A stretch of 64,000 nucleotides of DNA, from contig PSPG01000008.1 of NCBI GenBank assembly GCA_003193925.1, positions 62,001 to 126,000 on the forward strand. The letters run 5' to 3'. The notes beneath the pieces were generated by a model. The model saw nothing but the letters and a program-made list of their open reading frames with translations, had not been told where the DNA came from and did no database searches. A program made the position numbers and the translations under genes. This DNA comes from Candidatus Thalassarchaeum betae. Its GTDB lineage: Archaea > Thermoplasmatota > Poseidoniia > Poseidoniales > Thalassarchaeaceae. Below are positions 6,250 through 62,713 of the stretch, piece after piece. The first letter of the stretch is position 1. Each line of letters opens with the position of its first letter.

Positions 6250-9105
6250 CTACAGGAAAGCGATGCCGGGCTCCAACGGGAACGCGACACGGGCCTTACC
6301 CGCCACATCCTCACCATCTCCTACCGAGTATGCCTCGACCGAGTCGACGTCCAGCGCGGCGGCGAGGAAGCCGGCGTTAGCAGCGAGGATCCCGGCTTCG
6401 TCGAGGCCGCTGGAGATCAGCGTCCTCTCGCCATCAGACCAAGTGTGAATGCGGCCGCGCTTCTTCTTGCTGCCTGTCGTCATGGCCATCCAAGTCTGGA
6501 AAATCTCGCCTCGCAATGCCTCATTCTTGAATATCTCGAGGGACTGCAGGTGCGCCTGTCCCTGAGCCTTGAAGTCGAAGCCTTCCGAGTCGAGTCGGAT
6601 CGCGTCTTGAGCGAGCTCGGCCTTCCATGCGACTGCAGTCTGGATGACGACCCGACTGATTTCACCCTCTGTGTGGCGCTCGGCTAGGCCGCGCAGGTTG
6701 CGCGCGCTGTCGATTACGTTGCGCAGGTAGGTCTCGCGAGCGAGGACAGCGGTGTCGCCTACGGACTCACCGGCGTCGGGCAACACCAGCGTAGCCAGCA
6801 GACCCTCGCCGCCAGTCATCTGCCAGAACTCCTCGGCTACATGGGGAGTCGCCGGAGAGAGCATGGGTATCCATCCCTTCAGGAAGGCACTGGCAGTGGC
6901 TCGGTCGCAACCTCCTCGATGCCGATACCAGTTCCAATCTGAGAGCATCTCGAAGTGGCTCACCATCACTCCCTCACGAAGGCTGACGTTGCCCATCGCC
7001 TCACGCCACGCGCGTTGATTAGCGCGCAGTCTAGCGTTCAGCCAGTCGTCCATAGGACCCGGCGAGTCGTCCATGGAGAGCGCCGAGTCGACGGCGTCGA
7101 TAATCACGTGCATCTGTCGATGGTTCGCCTCCAGAGCGCTGTCAGACCAGTCCATGCCCGCCTCAGGGTTGGCTCCGAACAGAATGAACAGACGAATCGT
7201 GTCGGCGCCGTAGCGTCCGAGCATATCCCCCGGGCTGATTGTGTTGCCAAGCGACTTGCCCATCTTGGCGGAGCGTGTGCCTAGAGGCTTGCCGCAGGTC
7301 GGGCAGTCACCGCCGAAGTTGTCGACGTGATACTCGGCGTTGCAGTCGGCGCAGAAGGGCGCGGGAGCGTTCAGCATCCCCTGGCAGATCAGTCGGCCGA
7401 AGGGCTCGCCGACCGCGTTCATCCCGGCGTCGCGGGTCGCCTTGGTGAAGAAGCGGGCGTAGAGGAGGTGCATGACAGCGTGCTCGATGCCGCCGATGTA
7501 CAGATCAACGCCGTCGTCCATCCAGTAGTCGACTGTCTCGCGGTCGAAGGGCGCGGCGTCGTTGCTCGCGTCACAGAAGCGCATGAAGTACCACGAGGAG
7601 TCGTAGAACGTGTCCATCGTGTCCGTCTCGCGCTTGGCAGCGCCTTCGCACGAGGGGCATGTGGTGTTGACGAAGGCATCGTGAGATGCCAGAGGGTTGC
7701 CGCTCTGCTCCTCGCTGAAGGTCACGTCGAGCGGTAACTCGACTGGCAAATCGGCCGCTGGCACGGGCACGATGCCGCAGGCCTCGCAGTGAATCATCGG
7801 AATCGGCGTGCCCCAGAAGCGCTGGCGGCTCAACAGCCAGTCCTTGAGCCGGTACTCGATCGTGCCGTAGCCTGAGCCGTGGCCCTCAAGCGCGGCTATC
7901 ACAGCATCCTTGGCCTCGTCGCCGGCCAACCCATCGAAGGCATCACGACCGGAGTTGACCATTGGGCCGTAGCCCTCGAAGGCCCCGCTGAGCGCGGCAT
8001 CTGGGTCGTCGCCGGCTCGCTCAAGCAGCACACGCCTGATCTCGATGTCGTACCTCTCGGCGAAGTCGTAGTCGCGCTGGTCGTGCCCCGGCACGGCCAT
8101 CACAGCGCCGGTGCCATAGGAGGCGACGACGAAGTTGCCGGCGTAGATGGGCACCTCCTCGCCGTTCAGCGGGTTGATCGCGTGGCGGCCGAGGAAGACG
8201 CCCTTCTTCTCCTTCAGCATGTTGATGCGCTCGAACTCGGACATGCGCGCGCACTCGTCGCGAAGTTTGCTCCAGTCAGCCTCCCACTCGGTTCCCGCGC
8301 ACAGCTCCTCGCACAGCGGGTGCTCGGGCGAGAGGGTGACGAAGGTCACTCCGAAGATGGTGTCAGGCCGGGTGGTGAAGGTGCCGATGACGGCCTCAGA
8401 GCCGGCCACCGGGAAGTCGATGTGGGCGCCGTGGGAGCGGCCGATCCAGTTGCGCTGCATCGCCTTGACGTTCTCCGGGAAGGCGATGTTGTCGAGTTCG
8501 TCGAGCAACTCGTCGGAGTACTCGGTCATGCGCAGAAACCACTGCGCCATGTCCCTCTGCACGACCTCGAGGCCGCAGCGCCAGCAGCGGTTGTTCTTGA
8601 CCTGCTCGTTGGCGAGCACGGTGTCGCAGTCCACGCACCAGTTGACCGGTGCCATCCTGCGCTCGACCAGCCCGCGCTCGTTGAGCATCAGGAACATTCG
8701 CTGGTTCCAGTGGTAGTAGTCGACATCCGAGGTCGCGAGGAAGCGCCGCCAGTCGTACGAGTAACCCATCCGCTCCTGGTCGGCGCGGATGCTGGCGATG
8801 TTGCGGTGAGTCACCGTGTGCGGGTGCCCGCCCTCCTTCTTCGCCGCGTTCTCGGCGGGCATCCCGAACGAGTCGTAGCCCATTGGGTAGAGCACGTTGC
8901 TCCCCATTAGCCGGTGGAAGCGCGCCATGGCGTCGCCGATCGAGTAGTTCCGTACATGACCCATGTGCATGCTTCCGGAGGGGTAGGGGAACATCTCGAG
9001 GCAGTAGAACTTCGGTTTGGAGGAGTCGACTTCGACTTCGAAGGCACCAGCATCCGCCCACGCCTTCTGCCAGCGGGCCTCTACCTCTTGCGCGTCGTAT
9101 GCCAT
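6250..9105 (-). CDS. leuS: Leucyl-tRNA synthetase, bacterial-type
   Basis: Charges tRNA-Leu with leucine. The class I HIGH signature reads HMGH at residues 47-50 (FPYPSGSMHMGHVRNYSIGD). Zinc-type cysteine pairs are present (CVDC/CWRC and CADC/CPTC), and the editing CP1 domain contains the TTRPDTIFG motif. The second signature is KMGKS near residue 615 instead of KMSKS. The whole layout, including FGMPAENAAKKEGGHP, follows the bacterial/organellar LeuRS rather than the archaeal/eukaryotic form. That suggests horizontal acquisition, though no tree could be run. Length is 951 residues, with a C-terminal anticodon-binding and terminal domain. Confidence 0.95.
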   Translation of the reverse strand: MAYDAQEVEARWQKAWADAGAFEVEVDSSKPKFYCLEMFPYPSGSMHMGHVRNYSIGDAMARFHRLMGSNVLYPMGYDSFGMPAENAAKKEGGHPHTVTHRNIASIRADQERMGYSYDWRRFLATSDVDYYHWNQRMFLMLNERGLVERRMAPVNWCVDCDTVLANEQVKNNRCWRCGLEVVQRDMAQWFLRMTEYSDELLDELDNIAFPENVKAMQRNWIGRSHGAHIDFPVAGSEAVIGTFTTRPDTIFGVTFVTLSPEHPLCEELCAGTEWEADWSKLRDECARMSEFERINMLKEKKGVFLGRHAINPLNGEEVPIYAGNFVVASYGTGAVMAVPGHDQRDYDFAERYDIEIRRVLLERAGDDPDAALSGAFEGYGPMVNSGRDAFDGLAGDEAKDAVIAALEGHGSGYGTIEYRLKDWLLSRQRFWGTPIPMIHCEACGIVPVPAADLPVELPLDVTFSEEQSGNPLASHDAFVNTTCPSCEGAAKRETDTMDTFYDSSWYFMRFCDASNDAAPFDRETVDYWMDDGVDLYIGGIEHAVMHLLYARFFTKATRDAGMNAVGEPFGRLICQGMLNAPAPFCADCNAEYHVDNFGGDCPTCGKPLGTRSAKMGKSLGNTISPGDMLGRYGADTIRLFILFGANPEAGMDWSDSALEANHRQMHVIIDAVDSALSMDDSPGPMDDWLNARLRANQRAWREAMGNVSLREGVMVSHFEMLSDWNWYRHRGGCDRATASAFLKGWIPMLSPATPHVAEEFWQMTGGEGLLATLVLPDAGESVGDTAVLARETYLRNVIDSARNLRGLAERHTEGEISRVVIQTAVAWKAELAQDAIRLDSEGFDFKAQGQAHLQSLEIFKNEALRGEIFQTWMAMTTGSKKKRGRIHTWSDGERTLISSGLDEAGILAANAGFLAAALDVDSVEAYSVGDGEDVAGKARVAFPLEPGIAFL

Positions 9106-28259: not shown

Positions 28260-29348
28260 ATGGGCGGCCATACCTTGGAGGGGCTCGCATCGCTGGTGCG
28301 CAACCTCGGCAGCGCCTGCACCTTGCTGCGCATTGCCGACGACGACCTGCTGGCTGGCTCGCAAGAAGGAGAGCTGATATGCTGGTCAGTCGAATCCGGC
28401 ACCGAGCGCTGGAGGGTCGAGGTCGACGGGCCATTGTCCGACCTCGCCATCGACGGCGGTCGTGTCTACGCCTCGGCCTCAGCCAGCCTGCACGCGATTG
28501 ACCTGGATACTGGCGAGATTCTCTGGAGTCGGGGGCTCGAGGGGGCGAGCGACTACGTCCAAGCATGGGACGGCAGCGTCTGGGCTGTGTCCTCGGTCTA
28601 TGAGATCGAGGTTTCCGACTACACCGAGTCGACTGTCTGGAGATTCGACGGAATGGGGGAGCTGCAGGAGCGCTGGACTGTGCCTGAACGCGCTTGGCAC
28701 TTCGGACTGCACGAAGACGGGGGCGTCCTGCTCGGTCTCGGCAGACCCCGCTGCGGGTTCCTGAGAATCCGAAGCGGTGAGGAGCCTGAGCATCACCAGA
28801 TCGAGGGTGACAGCCCCGTCACAGTCGGAGCCTGCGGTTCGAGCGGTCGGTTCCTGATTGGCCACTCCGACGGAAGCGTCAGTACGATCGTCGGCTCCGA
28901 CGCGAAGACCGCAGGCGAGGGGTCGTCGCCGGTTCGTGCCATCACCGGCCACGGCGACGATTGGATCGCCGGTCAGGAATCGGGCCAAGTCGTCTCGAGC
29001 CGGGGTTGGACCACGACGGCGGCCGGCTCGGTGGACTCGCTCTCGATGGGGCCCTCGACATCCGAGGGCGAAGCCGTCTGGGTATCCTCGTGGAAAGGAG
29101 ACGGGGTGAGAATATCGGTCCTCGACCCAGACGGCGGCGGCTCCCTGCTGGAGTTCGACCACGGCCATAGGACAAGGCACATCCAAGCGAGCGCAGGTAA
29201 AGTCGTCCTAGGGGACTCCAGGGGGCGAATTCACCTGATCGAGGCAGGGGTCCTTACAAGGCGCGTGAAGGAATCGCCCGTGCCTGCCTCTGACGATGAG
29301 AATCGGGAGCGCCTGATGGAGCGTCTGAGGCAGCTTCGCGGCTCTTGA
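28260..29348 (+). CDS. PQQ/WD-like beta-propeller protein
   Basis: Function unknown. From ATG 28260 the protein is a run of four-stranded repeats of the PQQ-like type, such as LLAGSQEGELICWSVESGTERWRVEVDG and DLDTGEILWSRGLEGAS, with about seven blades. There is no signal peptide, so it is probably cytoplasmic. A short charged helical end (DDENRERLMERLRQLRGS) closes it. The longer track ORF (28062) overlaps the carboxypeptidase and is not used. It is the last protein gene before the 1-kb repeat region. Confidence 0.6.
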   Translation: MGGHTLEGLASLVRNLGSACTLLRIADDDLLAGSQEGELICWSVESGTERWRVEVDGPLSDLAIDGGRVYASASASLHAIDLDTGEILWSRGLEGASDYVQAWDGSVWAVSSVYEIEVSDYTESTVWRFDGMGELQERWTVPERAWHFGLHEDGGVLLGLGRPRCGFLRIRSGEEPEHHQIEGDSPVTVGACGSSGRFLIGHSDGSVSTIVGSDAKTAGEGSSPVRAITGHGDDWIAGQESGQVVSSRGWTTTAAGSVDSLSMGPSTSEGEAVWVSSWKGDGVRISVLDPDGGGSLLEFDHGHRTRHIQASAGKVVLGDSRGRIHLIEAGVLTRRVKESPVPASDDENRERLMERLRQLRGS

Positions 29349-29369
29349 ATTCAATAGAAATTAACAGTT

Positions 29370-29430
29370 GGGTACCCCTGTTTCCGGTGGACTGCGGGTC
29401 TGTTTGAAAAGGTTTAAGTGGGTACACCTG
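29370..29430 (+). promoter_or_regulatory. Tandem promoter-like units before the repeat region
   Basis: Two similar units 50 bases apart: GGGTACCCCTG at 29370-29380, preceded by AATTAACAGTT, and GGGTACACCTG at 29420-29430, preceded by GGTTTAAGT (29411-29419). The TTTAAG run after GAAAAG is the best TATA/BRE-like match and would place transcription start near 29440-29445. This would produce a plus-strand RNA through the repeat region. Confidence 0.4.
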
Positions 29431-29465
29431 CCCTGTCATCTTTGCCGCTTCTTTGGAGTGGTGTG

Positions 29466-29518
29466 GGGGCGCTTCGGCGCGACCCGCGGGCCACAGAACG
29501 AAGCCCCGAGAAAGGGGC
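29466..29518 (+). ncRNA. 5' hairpins of a candidate structured RNA
   Basis: GGGGCGC-TTCG-GCGC forms a stem with the very stable UUCG tetraloop (core 29469-29480), extendable by GGG with CCC at 29483-29485. A second stem GCCCC-GAGAAA-GGGGC covers 29503-29518. Both are perfect in the core and lie just downstream of the promoter-like boxes. UUCG loops are common in structural RNAs, so this supports, but does not prove, a noncoding transcript. Confidence 0.4.
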
Positions 29519-29605
29519 GGCGGAACCCGGGATCTGGAAAGAGAACGGGGAAGAGTCGGAACGCCTGTAGGCGGGAAGACGGCGGGAGAGCCGAAGCGGA
29601 CGAGA

Positions 29606-30175
29606 GTGGAGAGAACCGGAGAGAACTGGACGAAAGGAAGGGGGAGGAAGGGGAAAGGAAGCTGGAGGAAGCGGAGGGGGAAGCTGAGGAAAACGTAACC
29701 GAACTGGAGAGAACTGGACGCAAGGAAGGGGAAGGAAGGGGAAAACACAACCGAGGCAGAGGAACCATCCCGAAGAGATACGCGCGGAAGGGGGAGGAGA
29801 CGAACCTGGAGGCGGCGTGGAGAACGAAGTGGAGAGACCGACGGGAACCGGACGCAAGGAAGGGGAAGAACGGGAAGGAAGCGGAGGAGGAACACGAGTG
29901 AACGAGGGCGGAGAGATCCGTGGAGGAAGCTGTATCGGACCGTGGAGAGAACCGGAGAGAACTGGACGCAAGGAAGGGGGAGGAAGGGGAAGGAAGCGGA
30001 GAACGCGAAGGGGGGGGAAACGCCCTTGGAGAGAGAAGATGAGCGAAGTGGAGAGAACCGGAGAGAACTGGACGCAAGGAAGGGGGAGGAAGGGGAAGGA
30101 AGCGGAGCGCGACGAAGTGGAGAGAACCGGAGAGAACTGGACGCAAGGAAGGGGGAGGAAGGGGAAGGAAGCGGA
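29606..30175 (+). repeat. Irregular array of 59-nt purine-rich repeats (three identical, three degenerate)
   Basis: Identical 59-base copies occupy 29942-30000, 30048-30106 and 30117-30175, each starting GTGGAGAGAACCGGAGAGAA and ending GGAAGCGGA. Degenerate copies lie near 29606-29665, 29704-29745 and 29829-29886. Gaps between the identical copies are 47 and 10 bases, so this is not a CRISPR. Spacing breaks the reading frame between the first and second identical copies, which argues against a repeat protein. Each unit has the internal near-duplicate GGAGAGAAC(C/T)GGA. Confidence 0.9.
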
Positions 30176-30193
30176 GGAGTCTACCCGGGGAAG

Positions 30194-30257
30194 CCCGGGC
30201 CTTAGGGCCCGGGGGACACCCGGACCCTGCGGAGTATGCAGGGGGGGAAGCTCCCCC
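30194..30257 (+). other. Cluster of GC-rich hairpins closing the repeat region
   Basis: Three inverted repeats follow the last 59-base unit. CCCGGGCC-TTAG-GGCCCGGG is at 30194-30213, CCCTGC-GGAGTAT-GCAGGG at 30225-30243 and GGGGGA-AGC-TCCCCC at 30243-30257. The last two share bases and may alternate. They could be the 3' structured end of a plus-strand RNA. Confidence 0.6.
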
Positions 30258-30334
30258 ATGTGCGGAACCCCCTGCTGCTCCCACCTGTACCGCCAAGTAC
30301 GTCATCGGCCCACCTTGTCAGCGTTACAATCATT

Positions 30335-32644: not shown

Positions 32645-33814
32645 GTGAGTACCCTTAGCGACTACGACTGCCCCAAGTGCTCGACGAAACTCAGGGTGGA
32701 GTCAGCCGAGGAAGTAGATGGCGTCGACTTGCTGGTCTGCATCAAGTGCTGGGGCCTCGCAGTACAGGCCAAGACGATGCAAGGAATCGTTCCTGACGAA
32801 GTACGGGAGAAAATCGAGAACGCGGGGTTCAAGCACCCAGAGGGGCGCAGCTGCCCGGTTTGCCCCTCTACGATGATGGAAATAGCAGTGCCCAAACCAT
32901 TCGGATCAGAGGACCGAGCGAGCGAGCACGATGTGAAGATAGACATCTGCGGGGACTGCGCCACCATCTGGTTCGATGCAGGCGAGCTCGACACCCTGAA
33001 CGGCATCAAGCCGAAGCTGCGTAAGGTGGAGATGGAGGATAGCGCTGACAAGATAACGGCGGTTGTCGACGACTCGAGTTCCTCAGTGAAGTCGAGGAGG
33101 GTCGCGGGGATTTTCCTAGCATCACTCGGGTTGATGTTGCTGGGTGCAGGTTCGGGTGCCTGCTGGTCCATCACATCACTTCTGGTGATCCTGGGAGGCG
33201 GGATCCTTGCCATTACCGTGGCCCCGGAGACCGGACTTGAGAAGGGGGCCTGCAGCCGCTGCGGCCTCGAGGACGAGACGATTGGTTGGACTTGCCAGAG
33301 GGCGGGGTGCGAGGCTCCCATCTGCACCACATGCAGGTCGGCGGGTCAAGATCCGGCCGCGCAATACGTGAAGACCCTAGGTGGCGGTGCGTTGATGGTG
33401 GCGGGAGTCGTGCTTGGTATCGGTCTCCTCGTCGTCACTGAAGGGGCTGTGGCTGAAGGATTCCTCCCGGCAGCAGCCGGTTACGAATTGATTTCAGACG
33501 ATGAGGAGGAAGGTCTGCTAGTCTGCAAGGAATGCAAAAAGGAGATGGGTGCCCTTCAGTTCGCCGATTCCGATGCTCGCACAGAAAGAAAGGAATGGAC
33601 TGAGAAGGAAAAGAAGACGGCGGCAGGGGGGCCTTGGGATGTTGTCGATTCTTTCGCCGAGGGGGTGAAGGATGCGGAGTCAAAGAGTGCTCAGCGCGAA
33701 GAGTACCTGAAATCGCAGACCCACTGCCTACACATTGACGGGAAGACTGTCAAAAGGTGCCGCAGGATGGTTTTTCGCAAGTCAGGCTACTGCTACAGAC
33801 ACCAACGGGAGTGA
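32645..33814 (+). CDS. Zinc-ribbon membrane protein with C-terminal C-x-C-YCxxH motif (paralogue 1)
   Basis: Function unknown. From GTG 32645 there is an N-terminal zinc ribbon (YDCPKCSTKLRV with CIKCWG), then a TFIIB-like zinc ribbon (CPVCPSTMMEI with CGDCATIWFDAGEL). A membrane pair follows (IFLASLGLMLLGAGSGACW, LLVILGGGILAITV), then a B-box-like cysteine cluster (CSRCGLEDETIGWTC with CEAPICTTC) and another hydrophobic segment. It ends with CLHIDGKTVKRCRRMVFRKS and GYCYRHQ, a small Cys-Cys-Cys-His unit shared with the next gene. Four bases separate the two genes, so they are cotranscribed. Confidence 0.65.
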   Translation: MSTLSDYDCPKCSTKLRVESAEEVDGVDLLVCIKCWGLAVQAKTMQGIVPDEVREKIENAGFKHPEGRSCPVCPSTMMEIAVPKPFGSEDRASEHDVKIDICGDCATIWFDAGELDTLNGIKPKLRKVEMEDSADKITAVVDDSSSSVKSRRVAGIFLASLGLMLLGAGSGACWSITSLLVILGGGILAITVAPETGLEKGACSRCGLEDETIGWTCQRAGCEAPICTTCRSAGQDPAAQYVKTLGGGALMVAGVVLGIGLLVVTEGAVAEGFLPAAAGYELISDDEEEGLLVCKECKKEMGALQFADSDARTERKEWTEKEKKTAAGGPWDVVDSFAEGVKDAESKSAQREEYLKSQTHCLHIDGKTVKRCRRMVFRKSGYCYRHQRE

Positions 33815-33818
33815 TTGA

Positions 33819-34700
33819 ATGGCAAAGTGCAAGGGCATAGATGAGAATGGAGAGGTTTGTGGGCGCCCCGCCATGTACAATTCCGATTACTGCAAGAATC
33901 ACAGGACTCAGGACCCAACTGTGAGTATCTGCATGGGCAAGAACCCCGCTGGCAAACCCTGCTCTAGGATGGCGTTGGAGGGCCTTCTATTCTGCAGGCA
34001 GCACAGGACCCAGATAGCTGATATCGAAAAGCTCCAATGCCCCCGGGGATGCGGTCTGCTCAGTTACAGATGGGTAGACAACAAAGGCGGGTACTATGTT
34101 TGCAAAGAATGCAGGGGTGCAGTGCTAGATTCAAAGGCGATGGAGACTAGGCTTTCGAAGCACGTTGAGGGTCTAAACGAGCTTCTTGAGAGTGGTGAGG
34201 AGTGCTCTCTGAAGTGCCCTAATTGCGAGGGTGTGATGCTAGAGTTCAGGGTTGCCTACGTAATCGAAAGAGGTGGTGGTGGAGGCATGCACTTAGGCGG
34301 TGGCGGTGGTGGTGGTGCAATAATTGCCGGTATCGTTGTACTCGCCATAGTTGCAGCAGCTGCTGAAGCCTCAAAGAGGAAGTCCAAAGGTGAATATGAG
34401 CAGAATATAGGAGAAACCATGGTAGTCGATGGGTGTCGAGAGTGTGGGACATTCTGGTTCGATGGTGACGAATTGGGCATTGCACGAAACTCGTTAATCG
34501 AGGGCGCGAGTGCAGCGCATGTAGCCCGGATACAAGCAAATATTGCCGAGAAGAAGGCGTCCAAAGAGAGAATTCGATCGGCGGCTGGAACGGAGAATTG
34601 CATGCATGTTGAGAAGCGTGGGATGCCCCCGGCTTTGAAGAAGTGTAGAAGGGTCACTTATCGCGGCACTGAATACTGCTACATGCACCAGCCGGAGTGA
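33819..34700 (+). CDS. Zinc-motif membrane protein with three CxxxC-YCxxH units (paralogue 2)
   Basis: Function unknown. The N-terminus has two tandem small zinc units (CKGIDENGEVCGRPA...YCKNH and CMGKNPAGKPCSRMA...FCRQH) and the C-terminus a third (CMHVEKRGM...KKCRRVTYR...YCYMH). Between them are two TFIIB-like zinc ribbons (CPRGCG/CKEC and CPNCEG/CRECGTFWFDGDEL) around a glycine-rich stretch (GGGGGMHLGGGGGGG) and one membrane helix (AIIAGIVVLAIVAAAA). Base composition is visibly more AT-rich than its neighbours. The small unit resembles the DUF5763-type motif seen in viral and bacterial proteins, by recall. Confidence 0.65.
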   Translation: MAKCKGIDENGEVCGRPAMYNSDYCKNHRTQDPTVSICMGKNPAGKPCSRMALEGLLFCRQHRTQIADIEKLQCPRGCGLLSYRWVDNKGGYYVCKECRGAVLDSKAMETRLSKHVEGLNELLESGEECSLKCPNCEGVMLEFRVAYVIERGGGGGMHLGGGGGGGAIIAGIVVLAIVAAAAEASKRKSKGEYEQNIGETMVVDGCRECGTFWFDGDELGIARNSLIEGASAAHVARIQANIAEKKASKERIRSAAGTENCMHVEKRGMPPALKKCRRVTYRGTEYCYMHQPE

Positions 34701-62639: not shown

Positions 62640-62713
62640 TGGAGCACGGGCCGGGATTTGCACCCGGGTCCATGGATCTGCAGTCCATTGCATAGCTGCT
62701 CTGCCACCCGTGC
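62640..62713 (-). tRNA. tRNA-Cys (anticodon GCA), CCA encoded
   Basis: Minus-strand cloverleaf: acceptor GCACGGG/CCCGTGC, D-arm GCAGAGCAGCTATGC, anticodon stem ATGGA/TCCAT with loop CTGCAGA (anticodon GCA), T-stem CCGGG/CCCGG, discriminator U73 typical of tRNA-Cys, and CCA in the genome. No intron. The T-loop reads TGCAAAT, so position 55 is G where nearly all elongator tRNAs have U. It lies between the dehydratase and aminotransferase genes with no integrase nearby. Confidence 0.92.

Follow-up and report, generated by a model that had tools for sequence, protein, structure and literature searches.

Two adjacent genes, A and B, on the plus strand of the window (the whole stretch of 64,000 nucleotides that was analysed) encode proteins in which TFIIB-type zinc ribbons, hydrophobic segments and small Cys-Cys-Cys-His (CCCH) units are combined. 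Each of these domains is known individually; as judged by sequence searches, their combination constitutes a family almost restricted to marine group IIb archaea (Thalassarchaeaceae). Comparison with congeneric genomes indicates that the pairing of A and B is not ancestral and that B was relocated within this genome. From their hydropathy both proteins are probably attached to the membrane, and the explanation that we regard as about evenly poised is that they belong to a Thalassarchaeaceae family of membrane-attached, cytoplasm-facing zinc adaptors, of which B was moved by recombination. Zinc binding, a membrane topology confined to one side and the adaptor role are what we infer here. The window genome is an assembly of 1.48 Mb that is 92% complete.

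Gene A has the following features, all on the plus strand:

32645..33814, plus: gene A, 389 aa, GTG start
32669..32749, plus: zinc ribbon 1, C9-x2-C12 ... C32-x2-C35, all four Cys invariant in the A alignment
32852..32959, plus: zinc ribbon 2, C70-x2-C73 ... C102-x2-C105, WFDAGEL; PF13453 match, Cys invariant
33101..33238, plus: hydrophobic pair, residues 153-198, putative membrane hairpin; Kyte-Doolittle 19-residue windows of 1.80 and 2.16
33251..33535, plus: third Cys module, C203, C206, C217, C222, C227, C230 ... C294, C297; all eight Cys invariant in 6 orthologs
33368..33466, plus: hydrophobic insert, residues 242-274, within the third Cys module; Kyte-Doolittle maximum 2.31
33725..33802, plus: CCCH unit C361-C372-C383-H386, invariant in orthologs and homologous to unit 3 of B

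The GTG start is backed by the ATG found in orthologs at the same position. Ribbon 2 passes the profile PF13453 (Zn_ribbon_TFIIB) with 23.4 bits against a cut-off of 22, and at relaxed E-values the profile matches all 6 members of the A alignment. The hydrophobic insert of the third Cys module lies between C230 and C294 and parts the last Cys pair from the first six; no Pfam family scored above its cut-off for this eight-Cys module, and PF19067 was not detected by profile search at the CCCH unit. Three hydrophobic segments are recognised in A by Kyte-Doolittle hydropathy (residues 153-174, 175-198 and 242-274), which leaves the topology of its C-terminal part uncertain.

Gene B follows A after four bases and has the following features:

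33819..34700, plus: gene B, 293 aa, ATG start
33828..33902, plus: CCCH unit 1, C4-C14-C25-H28, PF19067 match
33930..34004, plus: CCCH unit 2, C38-C48-C59-H62, a motif conserved in B orthologs
34038..34112, plus: zinc ribbon 1, C74, C78, C95 and C98; C74, C95 and C98 invariant, C78 in at least 90% of members
34215..34445, plus: zinc ribbon 2, C133/C136 split from C206/C209; Cys and WFD..E invariant in 20 of 20 members
34272..34316, plus: glycine run GGGGGMHLGGGGGGG, residues 152-166, read from the sequence
34317..34364, plus: hydrophobic segment AIIAGIVVLAIVAAAA, residues 167-182, in the ribbon 2 loop and followed by Lys/Arg; Kyte-Doolittle window 2.39
34599..34688, plus: CCCH unit 3, C261-C276-C287-H290; C276, C287 and H290 invariant, homologous to the A unit

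Unit 1 of B passes PF19067 (DUF5763) with 33.8 bits against a cut-off of 26.3, while PF13891 (zf-C3Hc3H), at 26.6 bits, does not reach its cut-off of 27 and is matched at E <= 0.01 by 10 of the 20 members of the B alignment. PF13453 scores 20.5 bits in B, just under the cut-off of 22, and is matched by all 20 members at E <= 0.01. The hallmark of this profile, two Cys pairs with a C-terminal CxxWFDxxEL, falls in columns that are invariant in the alignments of both proteins. An earlier reading of the same DNA from its letters alone (the sequence-only reading) had described TFIIB-like ribbons in both genes, as is borne out by these profiles; its count of CCCH units, one in A and three in B, proved exact. 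Among the ORFs called in the window the CCCH motif is confined to A and B, and three units were reached by 1 of 2000 shuffles of B. The long glycine run that it had noted in B was found at residues 152-166, and most B orthologs are also glycine-rich at this position. One membrane helix had been proposed for each protein; this agrees with the single hydrophobic segment of B (maximum at residues 164-182, Kyte-Doolittle) and disagrees with the three segments of A.

In third-position composition B was correctly described as the more AT-rich gene. Its GC3 of 0.563, against 0.770 +/- 0.057 for 40 other window genes (z = -3.6), is the lowest of the genes tested and departs from the average in this comparison of codon use with neighbours; A deviates more mildly (z = -1.4). 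B orthologs in most congeners are likewise AT-richer than their neighbours, so the composition of B is no mark of recent foreign arrival. Between the window copies of A and B and their relatives dN/dS is 0.22-0.33 (about 0.22 for A), indicating purifying selection. Over the pairs tested B shows 0.25-0.41, and two neighbours are lower (0.03 and 0.09); B is thus under purifying selection weaker than that on these two neighbours.

The C-terminal CCCH units of A and B are homologous (hhalign E 1.8e-12, 36 columns), and by sequence the two proteins are distant relatives that have the ribbon types and this unit in common. They had been taken for tandem paralogs, which is right in that adjacent relatives are concerned. 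Their divergence is too great for a recent tandem duplication, which was rejected also because they lie apart in those congeners that possess both (G002, G010 and G012). In the window genome PF13453 has one match only, in A, and a genome-wide search with the C-terminal unit retrieves A and B only.

Orthologs of B occur in nine congeners and full-length homologs in genus g9, and A is conserved at its locus in four congeners and also in g11, a genus of the family, with a related contig in g4. Matches at E <= 1e-8 were obtained in 50 of 293 genomes of the order, several of the compared genomes being incomplete metagenome assemblies, and the matches listed all belong to f1, the family of the window genome; a search of four sister-family genomes did not find PF13453. 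Among named relatives, identity is highest to marine group II euryarchaeotes, Candidatus Thalassarchaeum betae among them, and the window genome most likely belongs to Thalassarchaeum. When 84,980 species were scanned, relatives were confirmed in archaeal assemblies, together with one bacterial single-ribbon protein; no relative encoded in the viral contigs was confirmed. Foreign transfer from outside the lineage was accordingly rejected, as neither the genome scan (with one weak bacterial single-ribbon match, L094) nor the viral contigs supplied a donor. A third branch of the family, the C type, was also observed (L057, gene at 6649, minus strand; L060, gene at 6814, minus strand). A few bases separate the ends of its genes from a sequence resembling a tRNA 3' end, GTGGCGCCCCGACCGGGATTTGAACCCGGG, on the other strand, an arrangement unlike that of the B site.

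Several known systems share parts of this architecture. Among solved structures the nearest is that of ZifS, a small zinc-finger protein from Thermus (TTHA0897, PDB 8yoz; profile E 4.9e-5) and a solved member of PF13453, whose ribbon CPxC...DxCxxCGxxWFDxxEL is also present in the A/B family. The chain of ZifS has 82 residues and a single ribbon, whereas A and B have two tandem ribbons, predicted membrane inserts and CCCH units. Other Thalassarchaeaceae (for example L037 and L038) encode PF13453 proteins of about 150-175 aa that share the two-ribbon core, which ends in WFDAGEL or WFDNREI, but unlike A and B these possess neither CCCH units nor a hydrophobic insert in the ribbon loops. The CCCH unit of B is held in common with PF19067 DUF5763, PF13891 zf-C3Hc3H and the N-terminus of haloarchaeal GvpO (NF045806), although PF19067 scores above its cut-off in B while PF13891 and NF045806 score below theirs. 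To our knowledge, TFIIB-type ribbons and membrane inserts are both missing from the DUF5763, zf-C3Hc3H and GvpO proteins that carry the unit. The literature that was searched contained no publication on DUF5763, zf-TFIIB or ZifS. The combination had been called unfamiliar; this stands for the whole proteins, which fall in no characterised family and have a rare architecture restricted to the lineage, and not for two of the component domains, which belong to named families by profile search. If confirmed, the architecture and the membrane mode would be new.

The proposed membrane mode takes the pair of TFIIB-type ribbons as the core of the family, with hydrophobic inserts placed in the loops of its zinc modules: in ribbon 2 in B, in ribbon 1 in the paralogs and in the eight-Cys module in A. 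Once closed around zinc, the ribbon would keep its loop in place as a membrane anchor, in-plane or re-entrant and comparable to LITAF, all metal sites would stay cytoplasmic, and the CCCH units, of DUF5763 or zf-C3Hc3H type, would be binding modules displayed at the membrane. In LITAF domains (PF10601; human LITAF, CDIP1) the Cys pairs flanking a hydrophobic helix form a zinc-ribbon-like fold, with the hydrophobic stretch between the pairs as in B; LITAF is monotopic, and its membrane association requires the zinc-binding residues (PMC5095921, PMC5142333). The same layout, a hydrophobic helix between the Cys pairs of one zinc site, is found by sequence and hydropathy in ribbon 2 of B and the paralogs. 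Unlike LITAF, the A/B family has tandem ribbons, inserts in different loops and added CCCH units. The PF10601 profile has no match in A or B, and LITAF is therefore an analogy, the claim being one on mechanism and not on membership.

In every B-type member and paralog inspected the Cys pairs of ribbon 2 flank a hydrophobic segment, which ranges from short and amphipathic to 20 residues long, and the site of the B segment is hydrophobic in all B orthologs and paralogs inspected. In the paralogs p2 and D the loop of ribbon 1 holds a long hydrophobic, hairpin-like stretch that reads as two helices; such a hairpin means an even number of crossings and would leave both Cys pairs on one side. A single crossing would split the ribbon, yet the ligands are invariant, which favours a LITAF-like, cytoplasm-facing anchor with CCCH modules. 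The AlphaFold2 model of B, of low confidence (mean pLDDT 55), places strands 139-147 and 199-206 of ribbon 2 around an unresolved loop, and that of A (mean pLDDT 38) is unusable. A fold search against the PDB gave no significant match, and the CCCH unit compared with solved structures gave chance-level matches only.

It is somewhat unlikely, in our estimation, that the segments are instead ordinary transmembrane helices, with B bitopic, its CCCH units on both sides of the membrane and its ribbon 2 degenerate or formed between molecules. Hydropathy values of up to 2.4 in B and 3.2 in the ortholog of G004, a Lys-rich C-terminal flank of the expected kind and the three hydrophobic segments of A all agree with such helices, but the invariance of all four Cys and of WFD..E of ribbon 2 in 20 members would be hard to explain if the site could not form. 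Moreover, the window copy of B is strongly hydrophobic over 16 residues only, and the insert is shorter and amphipathic in some paralogs.

The presence of strong hydrophobic segments at the same loop positions family-wide also bears on a second alternative, which we hold to be unlikely, namely that the proteins are soluble or peripheral regulators binding nucleic acid (DNA, RNA or RNA polymerase) and that the glycine/alanine-rich insert is a mere flexible linker. The transcription-related names of PF13453 and zf-C3Hc3H and the closest solved structure, ZifS, would suit this role; the DNA-binding label of zf-C3Hc3H is, in the words of Pfam, only 'potential', and the segments are not accounted for.

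If the zinc-clamped topology is right, the one-leaflet anchoring of the eukaryotic endosomal LITAF proteins would also be archaeal, in a new domain setting and in one of the archaeal groups that are common in the surface ocean.

The names of neighbouring genes used below were read from their sequences and not obtained by profile search. At the A locus the order is cyclophilin, A, CsaA, pyrE, polC. The gene is found between the cyclophilin and CsaA-like genes, by pyrE and polC (DNA polymerase D large subunit), in G012, G008, G010, G002 and members of genus g11, while the gap is empty in G005 and G006. In G004, G009 and G011 the site is occupied by an unrelated membrane protein of 175 residues (L103 2524-3048, L104 538-1062, L105 535-1059), so that the A-site gap takes different accessory genes; by eye this protein might be guessed to resemble bacterial PH-domain membrane proteins. 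B-type genes stand at the A site in genomes of g9 (L074, L075 and L077) and in UBA463, UBA121 and UBA438. The usual place of B, in nine congeners, has a hexapeptide-repeat acyltransferase-like gene on one side and a coiled-coil gene on the other; in some cases a second family gene stands there in tandem. In the window genome this site (L095) is without a family gene, and the flanking genes are separated by a few bases.

The junction between A and B was compared with the B site of congeners:

33812..33821, plus: relocation junction TGA-TTGA-ATG between A and B

At the usual B locus of G005, G007, G012 and G010 the gene is preceded by TGATTGAATG, which is the same at the A/B junction of the window; the TGA in the B-site leader TGA-TTGA-ATG is the stop codon of the hexapeptide-repeat gene. 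On the other side, A of G012 ends in TGATTAGGCGACC and continues as TGA-TTAGGCGACC into the CsaA gene, and 3' of B in the window the A-site flank resumes as TCAGGCGACC. In the tree, the window B falls together with those of the B site in G005 and G007 (support 0.99) and is thus a moved copy of an ordinary B gene. The A site as the ancestral place of B, considered because of the B-type genes there in g9, was rejected on this grouping. An assembly error as the source of the A-B pairing is unlikely, since the donor site is seamlessly closed in the same genome and the donor leader is present at the junction.

B moved from the site between the hexapeptide-repeat and coiled-coil genes to the end of A, probably by recombination through the short similarity of the 3' ends of family genes. 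Family genes have their last coding bases in common, and the last 27 nt of A of G012 and of the window B are 96% identical, although the similarity of the ends may instead stem from conserved residues and codon bias. The family provides a clear example in nature of one gene that moves between two sites and between congeners, in which the occupied donor sites, the empty site and the newly formed junction can all be seen.

Exchange among congeners is indicated by the synonymous divergence of B, which conflicts with that of its neighbours. Between G005 and G007 the pS of B is 0.21, that of the neighbours 0.57-0.70, and between G002 and G010 B has 0.16 against 0.36-0.53; for G002 and G012 the relation is reversed (0.61 against 0.29-0.35). 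Among G008, G010 and G002 the divergence of A is mosaic in a similar way, and some neighbours there share the pattern. The hexapeptide-repeat gene by B (L049 6586-7305 and relatives) was itself seen to be discordant, with a pS of 0.33 between G005 and G010 against 0.54-0.68 for other local genes, so exchange tracts extend past B. The C-terminal 83 nt of paralog p2 of G002 are 90% identical to B of G012, with no match in the remainder, and this identity suggests gene conversion. The family genes are accessory and recombining. The suspicion that B might have been transferred thus survives as relocation within the genome and exchange between congeneric species, with no donor outside the lineage. 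We put forward tentatively, as a possibility less probable than not, that the family came to a LITAF-like clamp independently of LITAF, employs it in several different zinc modules and spreads as single-gene cassettes bounded by the 3' ends of its own genes.

This mobility could also be that of a gene family engaged in host-virus conflict or defence, a role that we find very unlikely. The patchy presence, the alternative occupants of the site, the exchange between congeners and a protein evolution faster than that of neighbours are what such a role would predict, but accessory genes generally act alike. PADLOC has no match for A or B, a PHROGs search of both gave nothing convincing, no relative was found in viral contigs, and neither an effector domain nor defence genes alongside were recognised at the loci examined. 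That A or B is a factor of a ubiquitin-like system, as had been suggested, has a negligible probability: by eye the spacing C-x2-C-x10-C-x4-C-x4-C-x2-C ... C-x2-C of the eight-Cys module of A could form the two-zinc cross-brace of a RING-like ligase, but RING, B-box and ubiquitin-system profiles are unmatched, the module is missing from B, and no ubiquitin-system genes were recognised at the loci examined, where the neighbours are housekeeping genes.

Elsewhere in the window, a purine-skewed region at 29250-30310, between the fumarase gene and the preceding gene, has a GC skew of 0.30 and an AT skew of 0.36. It contains six copies of GAACTGGACGCAAGGAAGGGGGAGGAA at a spacing of 69-134 bases, which are found nowhere else in the genome and for which the chance expectation in the window is zero; an 18-base core of the element recurs at the same place in several relatives. 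We take the element to resemble loosely the archaeal origin recognition boxes, and the region may be a replication origin. Both Cdc6-type genes lie on contigs other than that of this element. The sole tRNA found in the window is a tRNA-Cys (GCA) at 62640-62713 on the minus strand.
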